Shown here one piece after another: positions 2 through 7,581 of a stretch of DNA of 7,581 nt; the first letter of the stretch is position 1; each line of letters begins with the position of its first letter. A model generated the notes under the pieces. The model had not been told where the DNA came from. It searched no databases and saw nothing but the letters and a program-made list of their open reading frames with translations. The position numbers and the translations under genes were made by a program. This stretch comes from Lachnospiraceae bacterium (GTDB taxonomy: Bacteria > Bacillota_A > Clostridia > Lachnospirales > Lachnospiraceae): positions 1-7,581 of the forward strand of contig JAGDDC010000177.1 in the NCBI GenBank assembly GCA_017958245.1, given 5' to 3'.

Positions 2-574
2 AAAGACGAGAACATCTCGCAGATCTACACCTCACCGCTCGGGCGCTCCGTCGAGACCGCTGGCTGCGTGAGCAAGGCGCTCGGGCTGCCCGTTCAGACG
101 CTCGACTTCATGGAGGAGATATACTGGGCAATGGGCGACAGCCCACTGTACAAGAACGGTCACCCGTGGATGATCGCGGACGAGATGGCCGCACACGGCA
201 TCAACCTCAACCGGCCCGACTGGCGCGAGACCGAGGATTTTAAGACCAACCGCGTGCTCGAATGCGTAGACCGGATCGAGAGCGACATAGACAAGTGGCT
301 TGAGAGCCTCGGTTACAAGCGGGAAGGCTTTTATTACAGGCACACCGAGGAAGAGAAGGAGCACAGGACCATAGCGCTGTTCTCGCACGGCGGCTCCTCG
401 AGCGTCGCGATCGGACACATCATAAACCTCCCGTTCCCCTACGTCTGCGGCCTGTTTCACACCGATTACACGGGGATCACCATACTTCGCTTCGAAAAGA
501 AAAAGGGGTTGGCAGGCCTTCCCTGTCTCGAACTTGCAAATGATGCCCGCCACGCGATGTCGACCCTGAAGTAA
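2..574 (+). CDS. Histidine phosphatase family protein (phosphoglycerate-mutase-like), 5' partial
   Basis: Reading from base 2 the frame is open from the window edge to the TAA at 572-574, giving 190 residues without the true start. Near its beginning it reads IYTSPLGRSVETAG, matching the motif that follows the catalytic RHG loop in histidine phosphatases. Near the end, ALFSHGGSSSV carries the second conserved histidine (codon 386-388) of the active site. Members of this superfamily remove or transfer phosphate through a phospho-histidine. The first histidine (RHG motif) must lie upstream of the window, so roughly the first 40-50 residues are missing. There is no signal peptide in the visible part and the protein is probably cytoplasmic. 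The substrate cannot be inferred, since the superfamily includes sugar phosphatases, cobalamin-pathway phosphatases and mutases. It ends 54 bases before a hairpin terminator shared with the convergent gene. Confidence 0.88.
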   Translation, partial: KDENISQIYTSPLGRSVETAGCVSKALGLPVQTLDFMEEIYWAMGDSPLYKNGHPWMIADEMAAHGINLNRPDWRETEDFKTNRVLECVDRIESDIDKWLESLGYKREGFYYRHTEEEKEHRTIALFSHGGSSSVAIGHIINLPFPYVCGLFHTDYTGITILRFEKKKGLAGLPCLELANDARHAMSTLK

Positions 575-685: not shown

Positions 686-916
686 TCAGTCCTCAGTTGC
701 GGGCTCTTCCTTCTTGTCCTCATCGGATGTGATGTTGATCGATACGTACTCTCTGGAGTCATCGTCGTCCTCGTCGTCCTCCTCGAGATCATCCTCGAAA
801 TCATCGAAATCCTCTTCGTCATCTCTTGCCACAAACTTTTTATAACATGCAAACCCTGCTGCGCAAGCTCCGGCTAAAGCGCCGACGCCAAGCAAAAACT
901 TAAAAAACTTCTTCAT
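686..916 (-). CDS. Small membrane-anchored protein with an extremely acidic tail
   Basis: The gene encodes 76 residues. The ATG at 914-916 is preceded by an AAAGGAAG ribosome site (about 925-932) with about 8-nt spacing, a strong promoter lies upstream, and a terminator follows the stop. Residues 1-7 are basic (MKKFFKF). Residues 8-24 form one hydrophobic, Gly/Ala-rich segment, probably a single membrane anchor or uncleaved signal, followed by YKKF. Residues 32-53 are 19 Asp/Glu out of 22, and the C-terminus (DEDKKEEPATED) is also acidic. No lipobox or enzyme motif is seen. The positive-inside rule is ambiguous because basic residues flank both ends of the hydrophobic segment. Small proteins of this layout occur in Clostridia without an assigned function. 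Cation binding, an electrostatic brush or protein docking are guesses only. I do not recognise a named family. Confidence 0.85.
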   Translation of the reverse strand: MKKFFKFLLGVGALAGACAAGFACYKKFVARDDEEDFDDFEDDLEEDDEDDDDSREYVSINITSDEDKKEEPATED

Positions 917-1193: not shown

Positions 1194-1529
1194 TCACAGT
1201 ATCTCTTCACTGTTCAGGTACGTTTTTATGTCGTGCAGAAACCCATCCGCCCGGTCAATCTGCCTTTTTGCATCCGCCTTCGACGCCACGTAAAAAACCA
1301 GGTAATCCGCCTTTTCCCTGTGTTTACTGCTGTCATAGCCTTTCAATGCATTGACAGCACGTATCGAGTGAAATATCGCATAATATGCCCTGTTCAAGCT
1401 GTTCTTATATCTTCCATATTGATCACGATTTTCATTTGACGTTCTCCACAAACGGTGATATAATTTTTGTATTATAGAACTTCGGGTCGGCAGTTTCTCT
1501 TTTTGGTGAGGAAGAGGCCTGTATTTCAC
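1194..1529 (-). pseudogene. Decayed HEPN-domain gene (N-terminus replaced, internal deletion)
   Basis: The open frame encodes 111 residues. The recognisable part starts near residue 39 (GRYKNSLNRAYYAIFHSIRAV), the hallmark helix of HEPN (PF05168/UPF0332-like) proteins, continues to KGYDSSKH (63-70) and ends with REKADYLVFYVASKADAKR and QIDRADGFLHDIKTYL, the family's C-terminal helices. From what I know of the family, about 30-35 residues that normally lie between the KH and the R..(A/S)DY stretch are missing at the H70-R71 join (about base 1319). The first 35 or so residues do not look like HEPN. A strong plus-strand promoter at 1436-1464 lies over this 5' part, and no ribosome site or convincing promoter for this strand was seen. 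HEPN proteins are often RNase toxins or partners of nucleotidyltransferase antitoxins, but no partner gene is present. It is most likely a non-functional remnant, though a shortened protein cannot be excluded. Confidence 0.65.
1436..1464 (+). promoter_or_regulatory. Sigma-A-type promoter for the hydrogenase-chemoreceptor gene
   Basis: TTGACG (-35, 1436-1441) and a perfect TATAAT (-10, 1459-1464) are separated by 17 bp. The predicted transcript starts near 1471 and has an untranslated leader of about 90 nt before the ATG at 1562. I saw no known riboswitch signature in that leader. The gene has a consensus GGAGG at 1551-1555, six bases before the start. Confidence 0.85.
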
Positions 1530-1561
1530 AAATTGGCAATATATAGGAACGGAGGCTGCAA

Positions 1562-3493
1562 ATGAGTATTATTCAAATCGACGAATCCAAATGCGTTGGC
1601 TGTAACTCCTGCATAAGGGTCTGCCCTTCTCTGGATGCCAACTATGCCCATGTGGACGAGGACGGGAAATCGATCATTTCGATCAACGACAATATGTGTA
1701 TCAAATGCGGCGCCTGCATCAAGGCGTGTACGCACGGAGCACGTTACTTTGTAGACGATACGGATGAATTCATGAGCGATGTCGCAGCCGGCAGAGAGAC
1801 CGCGCTGATAGTTGCTCCCGCGATCAAGCTCGCTTTCGACAGAGATTGGGAAGACCTTCTCTCCTACTTCAGGCAGCGAGGCGTCAAGCTCATTTACGAC
1901 GTCAGCTTCGGCGCGGATATCTGTACGTGGGTCCATGTGCGCTATGTGCAGCAGCATCCCCATGCGACCATCATTTCCCAGCCCTGTGCAGCCATAGTAA
2001 ACTACTGCTTAAAGCACAATCACGATCTCATCAAGTACCTCTCCCCCGGCCAGAGCCCCATGATGTGCACGGCCATCTATATGAGAAAGTACATGGGCTT
2101 CAAGGGCAAAATCGCAGCGATCTCCCCCTGTATAGCGAAGATCGACGAGTTCAAGCAGAACAACAACGTCATAAACTACAACGTCACCCTCGAGAAGCTC
2201 ACCAACTACTTGAAGGACAACAACATAAACTACCGCGGCGCCTCAAAGGGCAAGCATTTTACCTTTGACAGCCCCGAGGGCTTTGTGGGGGCCATCTATC
2301 CCCAGCCTGCGGGCCTCAAGGAGAACCTTCTCCTTCACGATCCCGACATGAGAGTCATCAACTCCGAGGGAACGGCCAGGATCTACCACGAGCTCGACCA
2401 GTATCTCCAGACCTCCGTAAGCTACAGGCCTACCGTGTTCGACGTCTTAAACTGCGAGTTCGGCTGCAACGGCGGTCCCGCGCTCGGCATCGAGTACGAG
2501 CCTTTCAAGATGTACTCAAGGACGATGGATGCCAAGTCAAAGACCAACAAGGCCCGCATGGAAGACTCCGGCAAGAAGGGCGTCGACAAGCAGTTCGCGG
2601 GATTTGATTCCAAGCTCAAGATCGAGGATTTCCTCCGAAGCTACAAGGCAGAGAACGTTGGCACGACCACCGTCACAGAGCCCGAGATACTCGCAGCTTT
2701 CAAGAGCCTCCACAAGAGGACCGAGACAGAGTGTCACTTCGACTGCCACGCATGCGGTTACCGCACCTGCCGCGACATGGCGACAGCTATCGCCAAGGGC
2801 CACAACGTGCCCGAGAACTGCCGCAGATTCAACGACTACATCATGGAGCAGGAGCGCATGAGACTCGACGAGTCGAACAACGCCATCGCCGGTATATCAA
2901 ATGAGCTCGGTGAGATCATCGCAAGCCTCTCCGACAGCATCAACACCGTTGAGACCTACGTCACCGAGATCCGCGACAACGGAAACGCAAGCTCCGAGGA
3001 TATGTCGATCGTTACAGAGCGCATGAGTTCACTCGGAGAGCTCACCGGCAACATACTCAACATGATGAAGGACATCGATTCCAACATCGTAAGCTACAGC
3101 GACATGACCAATTCGGTCAAGGCTATCGCAAACAAGATCAACCTCCTCTCACTCAACGCGTCGATCGAGTCGGCACGTGCAGGTGAGGCCGGCAGGGCAT
3201 TTGCGGTTGTGGCACAGAACATCAGAGAGCTCTCGGAGAGCTCGAGACAGTCAGTCGGAAGTGCGGAGGCGAACGAGGAGTCCATCAGGGCTTCGATCGA
3301 CAACGTCAACGCGACTGTGGACGAGTTCAGCGAAGGCTTCACGAAGCTTGTCAAGCTCCTCGAGGAAGCGCGTTCGAAGGTCGACACACTCTCCGACAAC
3401 AGCCTCAACATATCGGCTTCCATGCAGCGCGTGGACGACATCTCCAAGCAGCTTGAAAGCATAGCTGACCGCGCTTCGACCATAGTAGGATAA
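1562..3493 (+). CDS. [FeFe]-hydrogenase-like H-cluster protein fused to a chemotaxis signalling domain (predicted H2/redox sensor)
   Basis: The protein has 643 residues. Residues 11-21 and 46-56 are two ferredoxin-type CxxCxxCxxxC sites, each for one [4Fe-4S] cluster. Residues about 78-310 form an iron-only hydrogenase large-subunit domain with the four expected H-cluster cysteines: C142 (SQPCAAIV), C190 (SPCIAKIDE), and C298 and C302 (NCEFGCNGG). Residues 391-420 (C391, C395, C398, C403, C420; HACGYRTC) resemble the Fes [4Fe-4S] module of RnfB and group C hydrogenases. Residues about 439-640 are a helical methyl-accepting-chemotaxis signalling domain with the hairpin tip at 526-550 (INLLSLNASIESARAGEAGR, then AFAVV). 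No transmembrane segment is present, so it is cytoplasmic. The residue before C142 is Pro, where catalytic enzymes have the proton-relay Cys of TSCCP. In family terms this points to a sensory (group C/D-like) hydrogenase. H2 or redox state would be sensed at the H-cluster and relayed through the FeS sites to a CheW/CheA-type partner; that signal path is inference. Start: GGAGG six bases upstream. The gene is monocistronic, with its own promoter and terminator. Confidence 0.92.
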   Translation: MSIIQIDESKCVGCNSCIRVCPSLDANYAHVDEDGKSIISINDNMCIKCGACIKACTHGARYFVDDTDEFMSDVAAGRETALIVAPAIKLAFDRDWEDLLSYFRQRGVKLIYDVSFGADICTWVHVRYVQQHPHATIISQPCAAIVNYCLKHNHDLIKYLSPGQSPMMCTAIYMRKYMGFKGKIAAISPCIAKIDEFKQNNNVINYNVTLEKLTNYLKDNNINYRGASKGKHFTFDSPEGFVGAIYPQPAGLKENLLLHDPDMRVINSEGTARIYHELDQYLQTSVSYRPTVFDVLNCEFGCNGGPALGIEYEPFKMYSRTMDAKSKTNKARMEDSGKKGVDKQFAGFDSKLKIEDFLRSYKAENVGTTTVTEPEILAAFKSLHKRTETECHFDCHACGYRTCRDMATAIAKGHNVPENCRRFNDYIMEQERMRLDESNNAIAGISNELGEIIASLSDSINTVETYVTEIRDNGNASSEDMSIVTERMSSLGELTGNILNMMKDIDSNIVSYSDMTNSVKAIANKINLLSLNASIESARAGEAGRAFAVVAQNIRELSESSRQSVGSAEANEESIRASIDNVNATVDEFSEGFTKLVKLLEEARSKVDTLSDNSLNISASMQRVDDISKQLESIADRASTIVG

Positions 3494-3507
3494 AACAGGA
3501 ATTCCCG

Positions 3508-3544
3508 GAGGAAAGCCGCTTTACCACGGCTTTCCTCTTTTTTT
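3508..3544 (+). terminator. Intrinsic terminator of the hydrogenase-chemoreceptor gene
   Basis: A perfect 11-bp stem (GAGGAAAGCCG at 3508-3518 with CGGCTTTCCTC at 3527-3537) with an 8-nt loop is followed by seven T residues (3538-3544). It begins 14 bases after the stop codon. Confidence 0.95.
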
Positions 3545-3589
3545 GCCTCAAATGATCCATTTGCGGATTAACACTATCCGTTTTTGATA

Positions 3590-3618
3590 TTGCGAAGAGA
3601 CCCGATCATGTTTATAAT
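3590..3618 (+). promoter_or_regulatory. Sigma-A-type promoter for the lipoprotein gene
   Basis: TTGCGA (-35, 3590-3595, four of six consensus bases) and a perfect TATAAT (-10, 3613-3618) have a 17-bp spacer. The ATG at 3682 gives a leader of about 55 nt. The gap from 3545 to 3681 otherwise holds only this promoter and a weak AGGA ribosome site (3670-3673). Confidence 0.75.
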
Positions 3619-3681
3619 CTTCTTCGAAAACAAAAAAGTGCTGCCTTCACAGGCCAAAGTACAGAGAGTAGGATCAAACAT

Positions 3682-5283
3682 ATGAAAAAACGGTTTATTG
3701 CAATGATCATGGCGATGATGCTCGCAGCGAGCCTTGTCGCTTGTTCATCGGGAGATGATGAGCTTCCTCTGCCCTTCCCGACAAAAGAAGCGGAGACCGT
3801 CACCGAAGCTCCCACACCCGAACCCACTGCCGTTCCCCCGGCAACACCCGAGGCAACGCCCGAGCCCACCCCGGACCCCGTAAGCGAAGCTGATGCACAA
3901 AAGGCGAAGATCGCAGGCGCTTTCAAGACCTATCTTGAGGGCCTCGCATCAAACCCCGGGCCCGACTTCTCACCGGAGTACGATCAGCTCAAGTTCGGGC
4001 TTGCATTTGTCGATGAGGACGACATCCCGGAGCTCCTCTGGAGCTACAGTGATACCCACGCTTCGGGCATCCATGTAGTCATGTACAACGACGGAAGCCC
4101 TGTCGACATCGGAGAATTCGGGGAGTTTGGAACCCTCAATTACAAGAAAAAAGGCAACTTCATAATGAGCAATTATATGGGAATGGGCGTCGAGACCGAG
4201 GATTTCTACAGGATCTCGGGGACAAAGACCGAGCTTTTGCAGTCCTTCTACTCGGATGACAACACCGGAGAGACCCGTATTGATGAGACCGAGACGAGCA
4301 TGGACGAATACCTCAATCAGCTCGGGGCCATGACAGTTCAGATCGATGCGTATTTTTCGTATTATACGGCCACTCCGTACGAACTGTCCCTCCCGCTCAC
4401 GGACAAATACCTCGAAGGCATGGCAGATGCCCTTCTTGAGGACGGCGAATTCTACACCTACATGAACGACGAGTTGAAGGGCATGGTGGGCAGCTGGGCC
4501 CTCACCGAGGCTGAATATCCCGGCCCCACGGGTGATTACGAAAAATACCCCGCCGGAGACAATGCGTCATCGATGTTCACTCTATCCGACAACGGCATAA
4601 CGAGCCTCTGGTTCTCAAACGTTTCGAACGGACCGGATCTCTCGGTCACGAACTACGCCGCAACGATCCACTACAAGCCTTATCCGATGTATGACGGCTG
4701 TGAGAACAACAAGTGGTCGGCAGAGATAGCGGATGCGGAGCGCACGGGCAAGGCATTCTACGCCACTCTTCTCTCTCCCGAGAAGCTCATGGTCCTGATC
4801 GTGCTGGACAAGAATTCGGCAAGCGGCGAGTCAGATACGATCACATGCTACTACGAGCCGTCTCCCGACTATGACGAGGGACCTGACGATTCATACAGAG
4901 AACTCCTCGGAGATGTCAGTCTTGCCGAGTACAACGCTCTCGGAGATGACTACATCGCCCTGACTCTCGATGTGAAAGAATTCGTAAGTTCCGATGATGC
5001 CGACAAGATCGCGGAGTACGGACTGCCCGAAGATCTCGACGGTTATGATTACGAAATAGTCGACGTCCCGGGTTCCGACATCACCTTCTACGTTCCTCAG
5101 GTGGGTTCCACCTTCAAGGTGATCGAATACAACCCCGGCATTGAGAGCGTCGAACTGAGCCCGGCCGAGTTCCTTGATCACTTAAGCAGCCACTACGGCA
5201 TGATCTTCGCAAGTGTGTACTTCGAGGAGCCGTACGCGGAGACCCCGATCGCAACCTCAGTCGAAGAATACTATGTGCCTTAA
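3682..5283 (+). CDS. Secreted lipoprotein of unknown function with a Pro/Thr-rich linker
   Basis: The protein has 533 residues. Residues 1-20 are a signal peptide (MKKR, then a hydrophobic Met/Ala-rich core) ending in the lipobox LVAC, with lipidation predicted at C21, so the protein should be anchored on the outside of the cytoplasmic membrane. Residues 37-67 are a Pro/Thr/Glu-rich spacer with repeated TPEPT/ATPE units, as in cell-wall-spanning linkers. Residues about 70-190 resemble a domain common in clostridial lipoproteins, in which a DxDxDG-like motif precedes PEL: here FVDEDDIPELLWSYSDTHAS. The expected calcium-loop glycine is missing, so the loop looks degenerate. Residues about 266-335 (MVGSWALTEAEY ... 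FTLSDNGITSLWFSN) suggest a lipocalin-like beta barrel. The remaining C-terminal part, beta-rich and very acidic, is not recognised. No enzyme motif was found. The AGGA at 3670-3673, 8 nt before the ATG, is a modest ribosome site. The gene is separate from the upstream gene, with its own promoter. Confidence 0.92.
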   Translation: MKKRFIAMIMAMMLAASLVACSSGDDELPLPFPTKEAETVTEAPTPEPTAVPPATPEATPEPTPDPVSEADAQKAKIAGAFKTYLEGLASNPGPDFSPEYDQLKFGLAFVDEDDIPELLWSYSDTHASGIHVVMYNDGSPVDIGEFGEFGTLNYKKKGNFIMSNYMGMGVETEDFYRISGTKTELLQSFYSDDNTGETRIDETETSMDEYLNQLGAMTVQIDAYFSYYTATPYELSLPLTDKYLEGMADALLEDGEFYTYMNDELKGMVGSWALTEAEYPGPTGDYEKYPAGDNASSMFTLSDNGITSLWFSNVSNGPDLSVTNYAATIHYKPYPMYDGCENNKWSAEIADAERTGKAFYATLLSPEKLMVLIVLDKNSASGESDTITCYYEPSPDYDEGPDDSYRELLGDVSLAEYNALGDDYIALTLDVKEFVSSDDADKIAEYGLPEDLDGYDYEIVDVPGSDITFYVPQVGSTFKVIEYNPGIESVELSPAEFLDHLSSHYGMIFASVYFEEPYAETPIATSVEEYYVP

Positions 5284-5554: not shown

Positions 5555-6697
5555 TTATTTTAAGTCATATGAGATCTCGAATGATTGTCCCTTGTACTTC
5601 ACCTTCGCGTATGCTCCCGTCACCATCGGGATCCGTGGCGGGAGGTGTCCTATGTCGAGGTCCATGATGATCGGTACGTTTAAGTCGCCGAGAACTTCGA
5701 GGACGGCGCGGTCCATGCCGAACCCGAAGACTTCCTCTCCGTAGTGCATGGGGCGGCCCACCAGGAATGTCTTCGTATGTTCGAACCATCCCGCGTTCTT
5801 GAGCTGCCAGAGCGCACGGTAGACGCCGAGCGGATCGAGATCGCAGGATTCGAAGAAGAAGATCACCCCGTCGCTCTCGTATCTCTTCGAAAATTCTTTC
5901 ATGCCGTCAAAGCACGTCCCGACAAGGTTTGCAAGACAGTCGAGGCAGCCCCCGACAACTCTCCCTTCAAACTCCGCCGCTTCGCAGTTCGACTTAAGCA
6001 CTCTCTTCTCCGTCAGGTTGTAGAGGGGATAGGTCCCGTCCTCATGGTCGAAGCCTTCCCTCTCCCACATCGGATATCCTTCGAATGAGGTCTTCTTTCC
6101 ACGCAGGAAGTCGAAAGAGTCCTTTACCGATCCCTGCCAGTATCCCTCTCCATCCGCAGAAATTGTCGCGCCCGAAGGCTCATCGATGCCCGGTTTCGCA
6201 ACAGCATCCACCGCGCTTCCGATACTCTCGCCCTCCGCAGCTTTCTTCGCCGCGAGATACCCCGGAAGGCCTCCGAAGGACGCCGCATTCTGCCCGTAGA
6301 CTGCTGCCGTATCGCAGAGTGTAGCCTGCAGGAAAGTAAAATTCGTATTGTCGGAGAATCCCATGAACCACTTAGGTTTTGCTGCCCTGATGCGCTCAAA
6401 GTCGAGATACGGAAGGATGGTGCACATCAGCTCGCCGCCGCCGCAGGATATCAGGACGTCTGCTGCGGGATCGAGATACATGTCCTCAAGCTCCTTTGCG
6501 CAGAGCTTCGGCGTGTTGCTGATCCCGAGGCCCTTGTCCTCGAAGCAGTTCGGGCCGAGCACCGTCTTGTAGCCCAGCTCCTCAAACACCGAGACCGCCT
6601 TCTTAAAAGCCGTCATGTACGGCTCCCTCGAACACCCGAATGCCGGCGCAACAAACCCTATGGTCCCGCCTTCCTTCAAAAACTCAGGATATCTCAT
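5555..6697 (-). CDS. LD-carboxypeptidase / MccF-like serine peptidase (family S66)
   Basis: With the ATG at 6695-6697 the protein has 380 residues. The N-terminus (LKEGGTIGFVAPAFGC) is the typical S66 opening strand. GFSDNT carries the nucleophile elbow Ser (residue 115), FFFESCD carries the Glu (residue 283), and DIGHLPPRIPMVTGAYA carries the His (residue 351), so the Ser-Glu-His triad looks complete. The ISCGGGE and LVGRP stretches are also family-like. S66 enzymes cut the L,D peptide bond of murein tetrapeptides during cell-wall recycling (LdcA). The MccF branch instead cleaves acyl-sulfamoyl or microcin-type amides and gives self-immunity. The length, above the roughly 300 residues of LdcA, and the GRP stretch lean towards the MccF-like branch; the substrate is not settled. 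There is no signal peptide, so it is cytoplasmic. A GTG six bases upstream would add two residues but overlaps the ribosome site and is not the likely start. The stop codon lies inside the T-tract of the structured element. Confidence 0.92.
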   Translation of the reverse strand: MRYPEFLKEGGTIGFVAPAFGCSREPYMTAFKKAVSVFEELGYKTVLGPNCFEDKGLGISNTPKLCAKELEDMYLDPAADVLISCGGGELMCTILPYLDFERIRAAKPKWFMGFSDNTNFTFLQATLCDTAAVYGQNAASFGGLPGYLAAKKAAEGESIGSAVDAVAKPGIDEPSGATISADGEGYWQGSVKDSFDFLRGKKTSFEGYPMWEREGFDHEDGTYPLYNLTEKRVLKSNCEAAEFEGRVVGGCLDCLANLVGTCFDGMKEFSKRYESDGVIFFFESCDLDPLGVYRALWQLKNAGWFEHTKTFLVGRPMHYGEEVFGFGMDRAVLEVLGDLNVPIIMDLDIGHLPPRIPMVTGAYAKVKYKGQSFEISYDLK

Positions 6698-6701
6698 CTC
6701 C

Positions 6702-6707
6702 ACCTCC
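6702..6707 (-). promoter_or_regulatory. Ribosome binding site fixing the S66 peptidase start
   Basis: On the minus strand GGAGGT is followed by GGAG and then ATG. It is well placed for the ATG at 6695-6697 but overlaps the alternative GTG at 6701-6703, which rules that GTG out as the usual start. Confidence 0.85.
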
Positions 6708-6787: not shown

Positions 6788-7581
6788 CTAATCTGCTTTT
6801 ACTCTGGTCATTGCGATCAGCTCATCTCCATCCAAGTCTATCACAATCTCATCCCCGGGTGCAACCTGATCTGCCACGATCAGTTTCGCGCTCAGAGTCT
6901 CCACGCTCTTTTGCAGATATCTCTTGAGCGGTCTCGCGCCATATACCGGATCGTAGGCCCTGGATACTATGAAGTCCTTCGCGCGGTCTGTCACGGAGAT
7001 CTTGAGCTCCCTGTCCGCAAGCCTTCTGTTCAGGTCTGCGACTATCAGGTCTATGATGCTCGTGATGTTGTCCTTCGTGAGCGGCTTGAACATGATAGTC
7101 TCATCGAGCCTGTTCAAAAACTCGGGTCTGAAATGCGCCCTAAGCTCAGCCATGACCTCAGCCCTCGCGTCCTCCCTTATGTTGCCGTCCGGGTCGATGC
7201 CCTCGAGCAGGTAGGAGGATCCGATGTTTGATGTCATGATGAGTATGGTGTTCTTGAAATCCACGGTCCTGCCCTGTGAATCCGTGATACGCCCATCATC
7301 GAGCACCTGAAGAAGTACGTTGAAGACATCTGGATGCGCCTTCTCAACCTCGTCGAAGAGCACGACGCTGTAGGGTTTCCTTCTGACTGCCTCGGTGAGC
7401 TGTCCGCCCTCATCGTACCCCACGTATCCGGGAGGCGCACCGATGAGCCTCGAAACCGAGTGCTTCTCCATGTACTCACTCATATCGATCCTGACCATGT
7501 TGGCCTCGTTGTCAAAGAGCGCCTCGGCAAGCGCCTTCGCAAGCTCTGTCTTTCCGACGCCGGTGGGCCCCAAGAAGAGGA
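6788..7581 (-). CDS. clpB: ATP-dependent disaggregase ClpB, C-terminal part (5' end outside the window)
   Basis: The frame is open from the window edge ([17 protein letters not shown]) to the TAG at 6788-6790, giving about 264 residues, roughly the last third of a ClpB of about 860 residues. It covers the second AAA+ domain: Walker A GPTGVGKT, the pore-loop region with GYVGYDEGG, Walker [10 protein letters not shown], sensor 1 with TSN, the arginine-finger region [11 protein letters not shown], and sensor 2 GARPLKR followed by the C-terminal small domain. ClpB hexamers thread aggregated proteins through the central pore with DnaK help. No ClpP-binding loop would be expected. The [23 protein letters not shown] and [16 protein letters not shown] stretches fit clostridial ClpB rather than ClpC or ClpA. 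The first domain, the coiled-coil middle domain and any heat-shock promoter (CIRCE/CtsR) lie beyond the window. Confidence 0.94.

Follow-up and report, generated by a model that had tools for sequence, protein, structure and literature searches.

A hydrogenase-domain chemoreceptor of Lachnospiraceae with a HydS-type sensor module and a chemotaxis output

The locus and its protein

The stretch of DNA analysed (7,581 nt, called the window below) carries a gene for a 643-residue protein, preceded by a likely ribosome-binding site (Table 1). From the N terminus, two ferredoxin-type [4Fe-4S] sites are followed by an [FeFe]-hydrogenase H-domain, a Cx2Cx4Cx16C iron–sulphur module and the hairpin of a methyl-accepting chemotaxis protein (MCP), all on one chain, as described in the first-pass annotation of this DNA. 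The protein reaches the curated profile score of PF02906, and its match to MCPsignal (PF00015) has 72.6 bits for a cut-off of 34.6 (Pfam). There is no transmembrane segment and the protein is soluble by sequence. The tip of an MCP hairpin is the expected contact with CheA and CheW.

Table 1. Features of the window and of the hydrogenase-domain chemoreceptor
Feature	Position	Strand	Basis
Histidine-phosphatase-like neighbour	68-574		
Small DUF3042-like acidic protein, neighbour	686-916		
HEPN-domain protein, neighbour	1194-1529		
Likely ribosome-binding site, GGAGG	1551..1555	+	sequence read by eye
Gene for the 643-aa hydrogenase-domain chemoreceptor (HydS-type sensor and MCP output)	1562..3493	+	
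First [4Fe-4S] motif, C11-C21	1592..1624	+	
Second [4Fe-4S] motif, C46-C56	1697..1729	+	
H-domain, PF02906, residues 80-306	1799..2479	+	profile match and predicted fold
C142, L1 H-cluster cysteine, preceded by P141 at the position of the proton-relay cysteine (CpI C299)	1985..1987	+	alignment
C190, L2 H-cluster cysteine (SPCIAK), with S188 at the CpI M353 position and K193 at the presumed K358 position	2129..2131	+	alignment
C298 and C302, L3 H-cluster cysteines (DVLNCEFGC)	2453..2467	+	alignment
C-terminal FeS module, C395-C420, Cx2Cx4Cx16C	2744..2821	+	
Long helical hairpin, residues 421-642, arms of ~121 and ~102 residues flanking the tip	2822..3487	+	
Conserved MCP hairpin tip (NLLSLNASIESARAGEAGRAF)	3140..3202	+	tip alignment
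Lipoprotein-like protein, no family match, neighbour	3682-5283		
S66 LD-carboxypeptidase, neighbour	5555-6703		
ClpB C-terminal part, neighbour	6788-7573		

A protein search gave 4245 proteins at E <= 0.001 among 8000 scored candidates. In all 120 matches listed (the window protein is one of them) PF02906 and PF00015 occur together. The length is 640-650 residues in 112 of these 120 sequences (full range 638-686), the L2 and FeS motifs are present in every one and the MCP-tip pattern in 119. One listed homologue shares 86% identity with the window protein, and the closest named relatives among the matches listed belong to gut and rumen Lachnospiraceae. A frameshift or an assembly join between the two halves, which the first-pass annotation regarded as fatal to its reading, was looked for and not found. 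The gene is a single open frame, GC and GC3 are alike in the hydrogenase half and in the MCP half, and the 120 listed matches with the same architecture argue against a join, so that an artefact (frameshift, chimeric contig or chance open reading frame) can practically be dismissed. Proteins of this hydrogenase-domain chemoreceptor type are real and widespread.

Among the neighbours in the whole window, no che, flagellar or hydrogen-related gene was recognised. Neither is there a conserved operon: when the relatives' neighbours are compared with one another, without annotation, neighbour families are each shared by at most 3 of 25 loci (with a flank of only ~1.5 kb in L016-L025). Orphan cytoplasmic MCPs encoded outside che operons are common. 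Two arrangements in relatives are rare hints to hydrogen. In L046 (G114), a group B-type hydrogenase gene (363-1871) lies directly upstream of an MCP fusion (2159-4096), on the same strand and with ~290 bases between them, and on contig C24 of G087 a kinase fusion (L028) adjoins a group A hydrogenase.

Active-site residues, hydrogenase class and exchange of outputs

The four H-cluster cysteines announced by the first-pass annotation are all located by alignment (C142, C190, C298 and C302). Loop L1 reads SQPCAA in the window protein and mostly TSCCPxW in canonical group A/B proteins. With respect to CpI, C299 is replaced by P141, M353 by S188 and M497 by L296, and the L2 lysine is retained (K193, which we take to be K358 of CpI). 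In 62 aligned sequences, the window protein included, there is no variation at the four H-cluster cysteines, at the L2 lysine or at the four cysteines of the C-terminal FeS module. The same cysteines and lysine are kept in a set of 51 fusion rows, where the pocket residues holding the [2Fe] cofactor are likewise conserved. One more cysteine, C169 (SPMMC, window 2066-2068), belongs to no cluster motif known to us; none of the 62 aligned sequences lacks it, and 50 of the 51 fusion rows have it. A diverged copy in G099 (L060) is without several of the pocket residues.

PMC8163306 and PMC10055695 give C299, M353 and M497 (CpI numbering) as the positions altered in sensory hydrogenases, and proline at the C299 position is found in about 10% of the sensory HydDB sequences (PMC10055695). 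The combination of P141 with serine and leucine in place of M353 and M497 is as expected for a slow, sensing H-cluster and not for a production enzyme. The canonical group A/B cut-offs of NCBIfam are missed by the window protein (88 bits for 405.95 with TIGR02512 and 108.9 for 450 with TIGR04105). Group C (M2f), as defined in PMC8163306, has two N-terminal [4Fe-4S] sites and a C-terminal Cx2Cx4Cx16C (a motif that unites groups C and D). The window protein has this layout, and it has the altered residues of the group as well, with no cysteine at C299 and with M353 and M497 changed. Pfam finds no PAS domain after the FeS module of the window protein; an MCP hairpin is in its place.

In HydDB, Table 1 separates C1 (histidine-kinase-linked), C2 ("Chemotactic (putative)") and C3 (phosphatase-linked), with roles given as undetermined for all three (PMC5037454). 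C2 is defined there by linkage to chemotaxis and not by PAS, and in the window protein that linkage is found on the same chain: as in C2, a hydrogenase catalytic subunit is tied to a methyl-accepting chemotaxis output. Because HydDB already lists this group in 2016, the window protein is not a new kind but a member of a named class of putative H2 receptors, a membership that rests on the layout and on a table line that does not say "fused" (PMC5037454). The novelty suggested at first is thus not supported as stated. The C2 description is repeated in PMC9431212, where C2 proteins are among those discarded from the validated set. We did not find an experimental study of an MCP–hydrogenase fusion in the open-licence literature; subscription papers may hold one.

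The nearest characterised proteins are sensory hydrogenases with other ends. TmHydS of Thermotoga maritima (group C, M2f) shares with the window protein the two N-terminal [4Fe-4S] sites, the H-domain and the Cx2Cx4Cx16C motif, and it is altered at C299, M353 and M497 too; its output is a PAS domain, whereas that of the window protein is an MCP hairpin. TamHydS of Thermoanaerobacter mathranii (group D, M2e) has the same sensor layout, also with a hydroxyl residue at the M353 position, but its chain carries no output domain. Both proteins, similar in layout, carry a bound H-cluster and show reactivity towards H2 (PMC8163306, PMC13104023 and PMC10055695). Among the relatives' genomes, the two sequences that we label D-like (L077 and L078) branch apart from the window clade, with a long-branch warning. 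On the output side, cytoplasmic MCPs with non-canonical input domains share with the window protein the hairpin, its conserved tip and the lack of a transmembrane segment. The input of the window protein, in contrast, is built from a hydrogenase H-domain and as many as four iron–sulphur sites.

The sensor module (two Fer4 sites, the H-domain and the C-terminal FeS cysteines) was compared across outputs. It is followed by a hybrid histidine kinase in L026, L027, L028, L031 and L034, and by a kinase for which no receiver was found in L014 and in L032 (the latter ends at a contig edge). In L033 (G076) and L035 (G187) it precedes GGDEF-EAL, an apparent cyclic-di-GMP output; such fusions of an [FeFe] H-domain are absent from the passage around Table 1 of HydDB (PMC5037454). 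L030 (G130) has an MCP hairpin and then a response-regulator receiver, and L029 has the sensor without any output domain. In L035 the L2 lysine is an arginine.

In the tree, the window protein lies inside a clade of 11 MCP members with support 100/100. The sequences joining this clade at an unstarred fork (93/88) are the short MCPs L004 and L037, three kinases and one solo protein. The rows labelled "HKorOther" (kinases mixed with GGDEF-EAL) need at least 4 changes on the tree, and so the outputs of the sensor have probably been exchanged repeatedly. Long-branch warnings apply to L035, L060, L076 and the D-like pair L077/L078, and the label "MCPfar" includes L014, a histidine-kinase fusion. 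Two hydrogenase chemoreceptors are encoded next to each other in L036 (G106), one of the near clade (50% identity to the window protein) and one of the far clade (35%).

Chemotaxis genes, maturases and the possible stimulus

Gene content was compared in relatives' genomes and not in the window's own organism. The sample comprises 200 genomes in the family to which Roseburia faecis (G013) belongs, requested with a completeness filter of 90%. A match at E <= 1e-60 occurs in 40 of them. G077, G084, G037 and G057 were excluded since their copies have other outputs, and G087 was retained on account of L037, an MCP fusion. In all of the 36 carriers that remain, an MCP hairpin was recognised by motif or by Pfam. 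In G120 a single stop interrupts the match to the fusion copy.

CheA (PF02895) is present in 36/36 carriers and in 62/164 other genomes (p 1.2e-13, in a test that ignores shared ancestry). CheW occurs in 15/15 genomes behind a separate set of 15 loci, of which 14 are MCP fusions and one, L014 (genome G014), is a kinase fusion. A lack of CheA or CheW, held in the first-pass annotation to count against its proposal, is thus contradicted in the relatives (CheA in 36/36, CheW in 15/15, 14 of these with an MCP fusion), and the link of the fusion to chemotaxis is well supported.

We lean towards a cytoplasmic receptor in which the H-domain, loaded where the cell is able to do so, would follow H2 and the ferredoxin redox poise and would signal through the hairpin and CheA. 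The architecture, the conserved residues, the predicted fold and the co-occurrence with CheA, on which this reading draws, are observed. The HydS-type sensor (two ferredoxin clusters, H-domain and C-terminal [4Fe-4S]) would substitute for the usual ligand-binding domain. Binding of H2, or electrons coming from ferredoxin, would produce a redox or conformational shift of the H-domain, which could reach the C-terminal [4Fe-4S] module; the signalling helix follows right after C420, the last ligand of this module. The MCP hairpin would then alter the activity of CheA, through its contacts with CheA/CheW. In this chain of events we infer the loading of the [2Fe] cofactor, H2 as the stimulus, the direction of the response and the membership in an array. 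In TamHydS, the C-terminal cluster is unresponsive to H2 according to PMC13104023, which speaks against a redox relay by way of this cluster, and a conformational path from the H-domain to the hairpin would by this analogy be as likely as a simple electron relay.

The output beyond CheA could be other than swimming. The sigma-28 promoter consensus was used for scoring upstream regions, and a sigma-28-like flagellar promoter is rejected for the window: its best score is equalled by 100/100 shuffles. In the best-scoring relatives (7 of 65 rows) the score is still reached by 9-20 of 100 shuffles. The lack of such a promoter, the lack of any recognised che or flagellar gene among the window neighbours and the receiver after the MCP hairpin of L030 would fit a hairpin that signals through CheA/CheW to type IV pili, gene regulation or cell–cell contact, or that merely scaffolds arrays. 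The presence of CheA in every one of the 36 carriers and the commonness of orphan cytoplasmic MCPs stand on the other side, and we consider this alternative improbable.

The maturases follow a different distribution. HydG, called by TIGR03955 above its cut-off, is found in 17/36 carriers and in 73/164 others (p 0.85), that is, without enrichment. With HydE and HydF searched as well, 17 of the 36 carriers have all three maturases, none is found in 14, and five are partial (HydE and HydF in G129, G013 and G083, HydF in G120, HydE in G086). When 13 further MCP carriers from the set of 15 loci are included, the numbers are 25 complete, 17 with none and 7 partial among 49. The maturase-complete (25 rows), maturase-free (17 rows) and partial sets do not differ in their H-cluster cysteines, their L2 lysine or their FeS cysteines. 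Close orthologs come from maturase-complete and maturase-free genomes alike: L059 (G166) and L048 (G210) share 82% identity, L045 (G187) and L057 (G110) 79%. In G210 the fusion is the sole PF02906 protein and HydE, HydF and HydG are all not found; a stretch with HypB, HypE-like and HypD-like genes in that genome looks of the [NiFe] type.

The first-pass annotation had also taken the absence of hydEFG as speaking against its proposal. As far as found, that absence is real in 14/36 carriers, while 17/36 carry the complete set. Group A/B hydrogenases (E <= 1e-90), several of them with intact motifs, occur in 184 of the 200 genomes; 94 of these 184 are without HydG. HydG is present in 90/200 genomes and in 0/16 of those without a group A or B hydrogenase. 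The rule "no HydG, no H-cluster" fails this positive control and was rejected as a proof. With canonical group A/B hydrogenases occurring without HydG, its absence is not decisive against the [2Fe] cofactor. PMC9431212 notes HydG as undetected in 5 of 8 Clostridium acetogens having HydE and HydF, and cites work in which these two maturases, with no HydG present, activated hydrogenase in vitro at a level of about 1%. In three of the genomes without HydG, proteins of group A type (L065 in G045, L066 in G114 and L069 in G002) have TSCSPGW as L1; the second cysteine, which aligns as an H-cluster ligand, is missing, and these are perhaps hydrogenase-like oxidoreductases devoid of an H-cluster.

In the genomes compared, the receptor is always accompanied by CheA but not by the maturases; either it works without [2Fe] or some of these genomes build [2Fe] otherwise. 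Nar1 is a hydrogenase-like protein whose H-domain is without the [2Fe] part of the H-cluster. On the first of these readings, some or all carriers would have a [2Fe]-free iron–sulphur chemoreceptor that senses ferredoxin redox, oxygen or nitric oxide, and not H2. The 14 carriers in which no maturase was found, the absence of HydG enrichment, the sameness of the H-cluster cysteines and the L2 lysine in the 25 maturase-complete and 17 maturase-free rows, and the near orthologs at 82% and 79% identity in both kinds of genome all point that way. Against it, the pocket residues for the [2Fe] cofactor are conserved too, the 94 genomes with group A/B hydrogenases and no HydG mean that a missing HydG is no proof of a missing cofactor, and a candidate alternative pathway exists, though it was seen in only 2 of the 36 carriers (G013 and G083). 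We regard a [2Fe]-free receptor as rather unlikely, and it is with the same reserve that we mention its broader form, in which the H-domain would have been turned into an iron–sulphur redox receptor for chemotaxis, either [2Fe]-free or with optional loading, and the C2 proteins, kept independently of H-cluster biosynthesis, would largely be redox chemoreceptors.

For the H2- and redox-following receptor that we favour, the maturase data weaken the sensing of H2 but do not refute it, since group A/B hydrogenases also occur without HydG. The want of recognised che or hyd neighbours and of a sigma-28-like promoter counts against this receptor as well; in its favour are the hydrogenase genes beside the fusions of G114 and G087, the HydG count of 0/16 and the H2 reactivity of TmHydS and TamHydS. 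Of the cytoplasmic H2 or redox chemoreceptor first proposed, the tie to CheA stands (36/36), whereas H2 as the stimulus gains nothing from HydG (17/36 vs. 73/164); from the sequences, H2 sensing by the fusion protein is plausible. In the fermentations of gut and rumen, H2 serves as a central currency; the question is whether organisms that make H2 also taste it and move accordingly. The class offers for this a soluble single chain, in which the H-domain and the CheA output can be assayed together.

NifHDK-like clusters with HypD, HypE and HypF

In genomes without HydG, a cluster recurs in which HypF, HypD and HypE stand beside NifH-, NifD- and NifK-like genes. Seven such clusters were read: L088 (G013), L089 (G169), L090 (G209), L091 (G033), L092 (G072), L093 (G122) and L082 (G083). 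The genes of L088-L093 were mostly named by similarity to those of L082 and L084, and a sample of them by NCBIfam. Five of the seven clusters (L088-L091 and L093) contain two sets of the NifHDK-like genes; L092 has one set, with the D and K parts in one frame. HydF is present in L091, HydE in L092 and both in L082, and a TM1266-family "[FeFe] hydrogenase system regulator" occurs in L090 and L093. The apparent C-terminal half of HypF in L082 is not a real truncation; the gene is cut by the edge of the stretch examined.

By coordinates read by eye, HypD is close to a nitrogenase-like protein (PF00148) in at least 13 genomes. Among the matches listed, HydG occurs in 0/13 of these and in 90/187 of the others (p 3e-4, for a comparison chosen post hoc), and a group A or B hydrogenase in 13/13. 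In [NiFe] enzymes, the Fe(CN)2CO unit is the product of HypD, HypE and HypF (PMC9431212), which suggests the NifHDK-like/HypDEF cluster as a candidate for a HydG-independent pathway of H-cluster assembly. Two counts argue against such a route: HydG is present in 8/38 HypD genomes, and HypD is found in 1/14 maturase-free carriers, namely in the [NiFe]-type setting of G210. The PF00148 genes alone are not supported as a general stand-in for HydG, since of the 64 genomes with PF00148 among the matches listed, 23 have HydG too (p 0.09). We did not find a paper on the NifHDK-like/Hyp cluster in the open-licence literature.

L084 (G002), L086 (G129) and L095 (G161), all from genomes without HydG, show another arrangement, with no Hyp gene seen. 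Here an ABC transporter ATPase and an iron-type binding protein accompany the NifHDK-like genes, and next to them lies HydF in L084 and L086 (the latter named by likeness to L084) or a TM1266-family regulator in L095.
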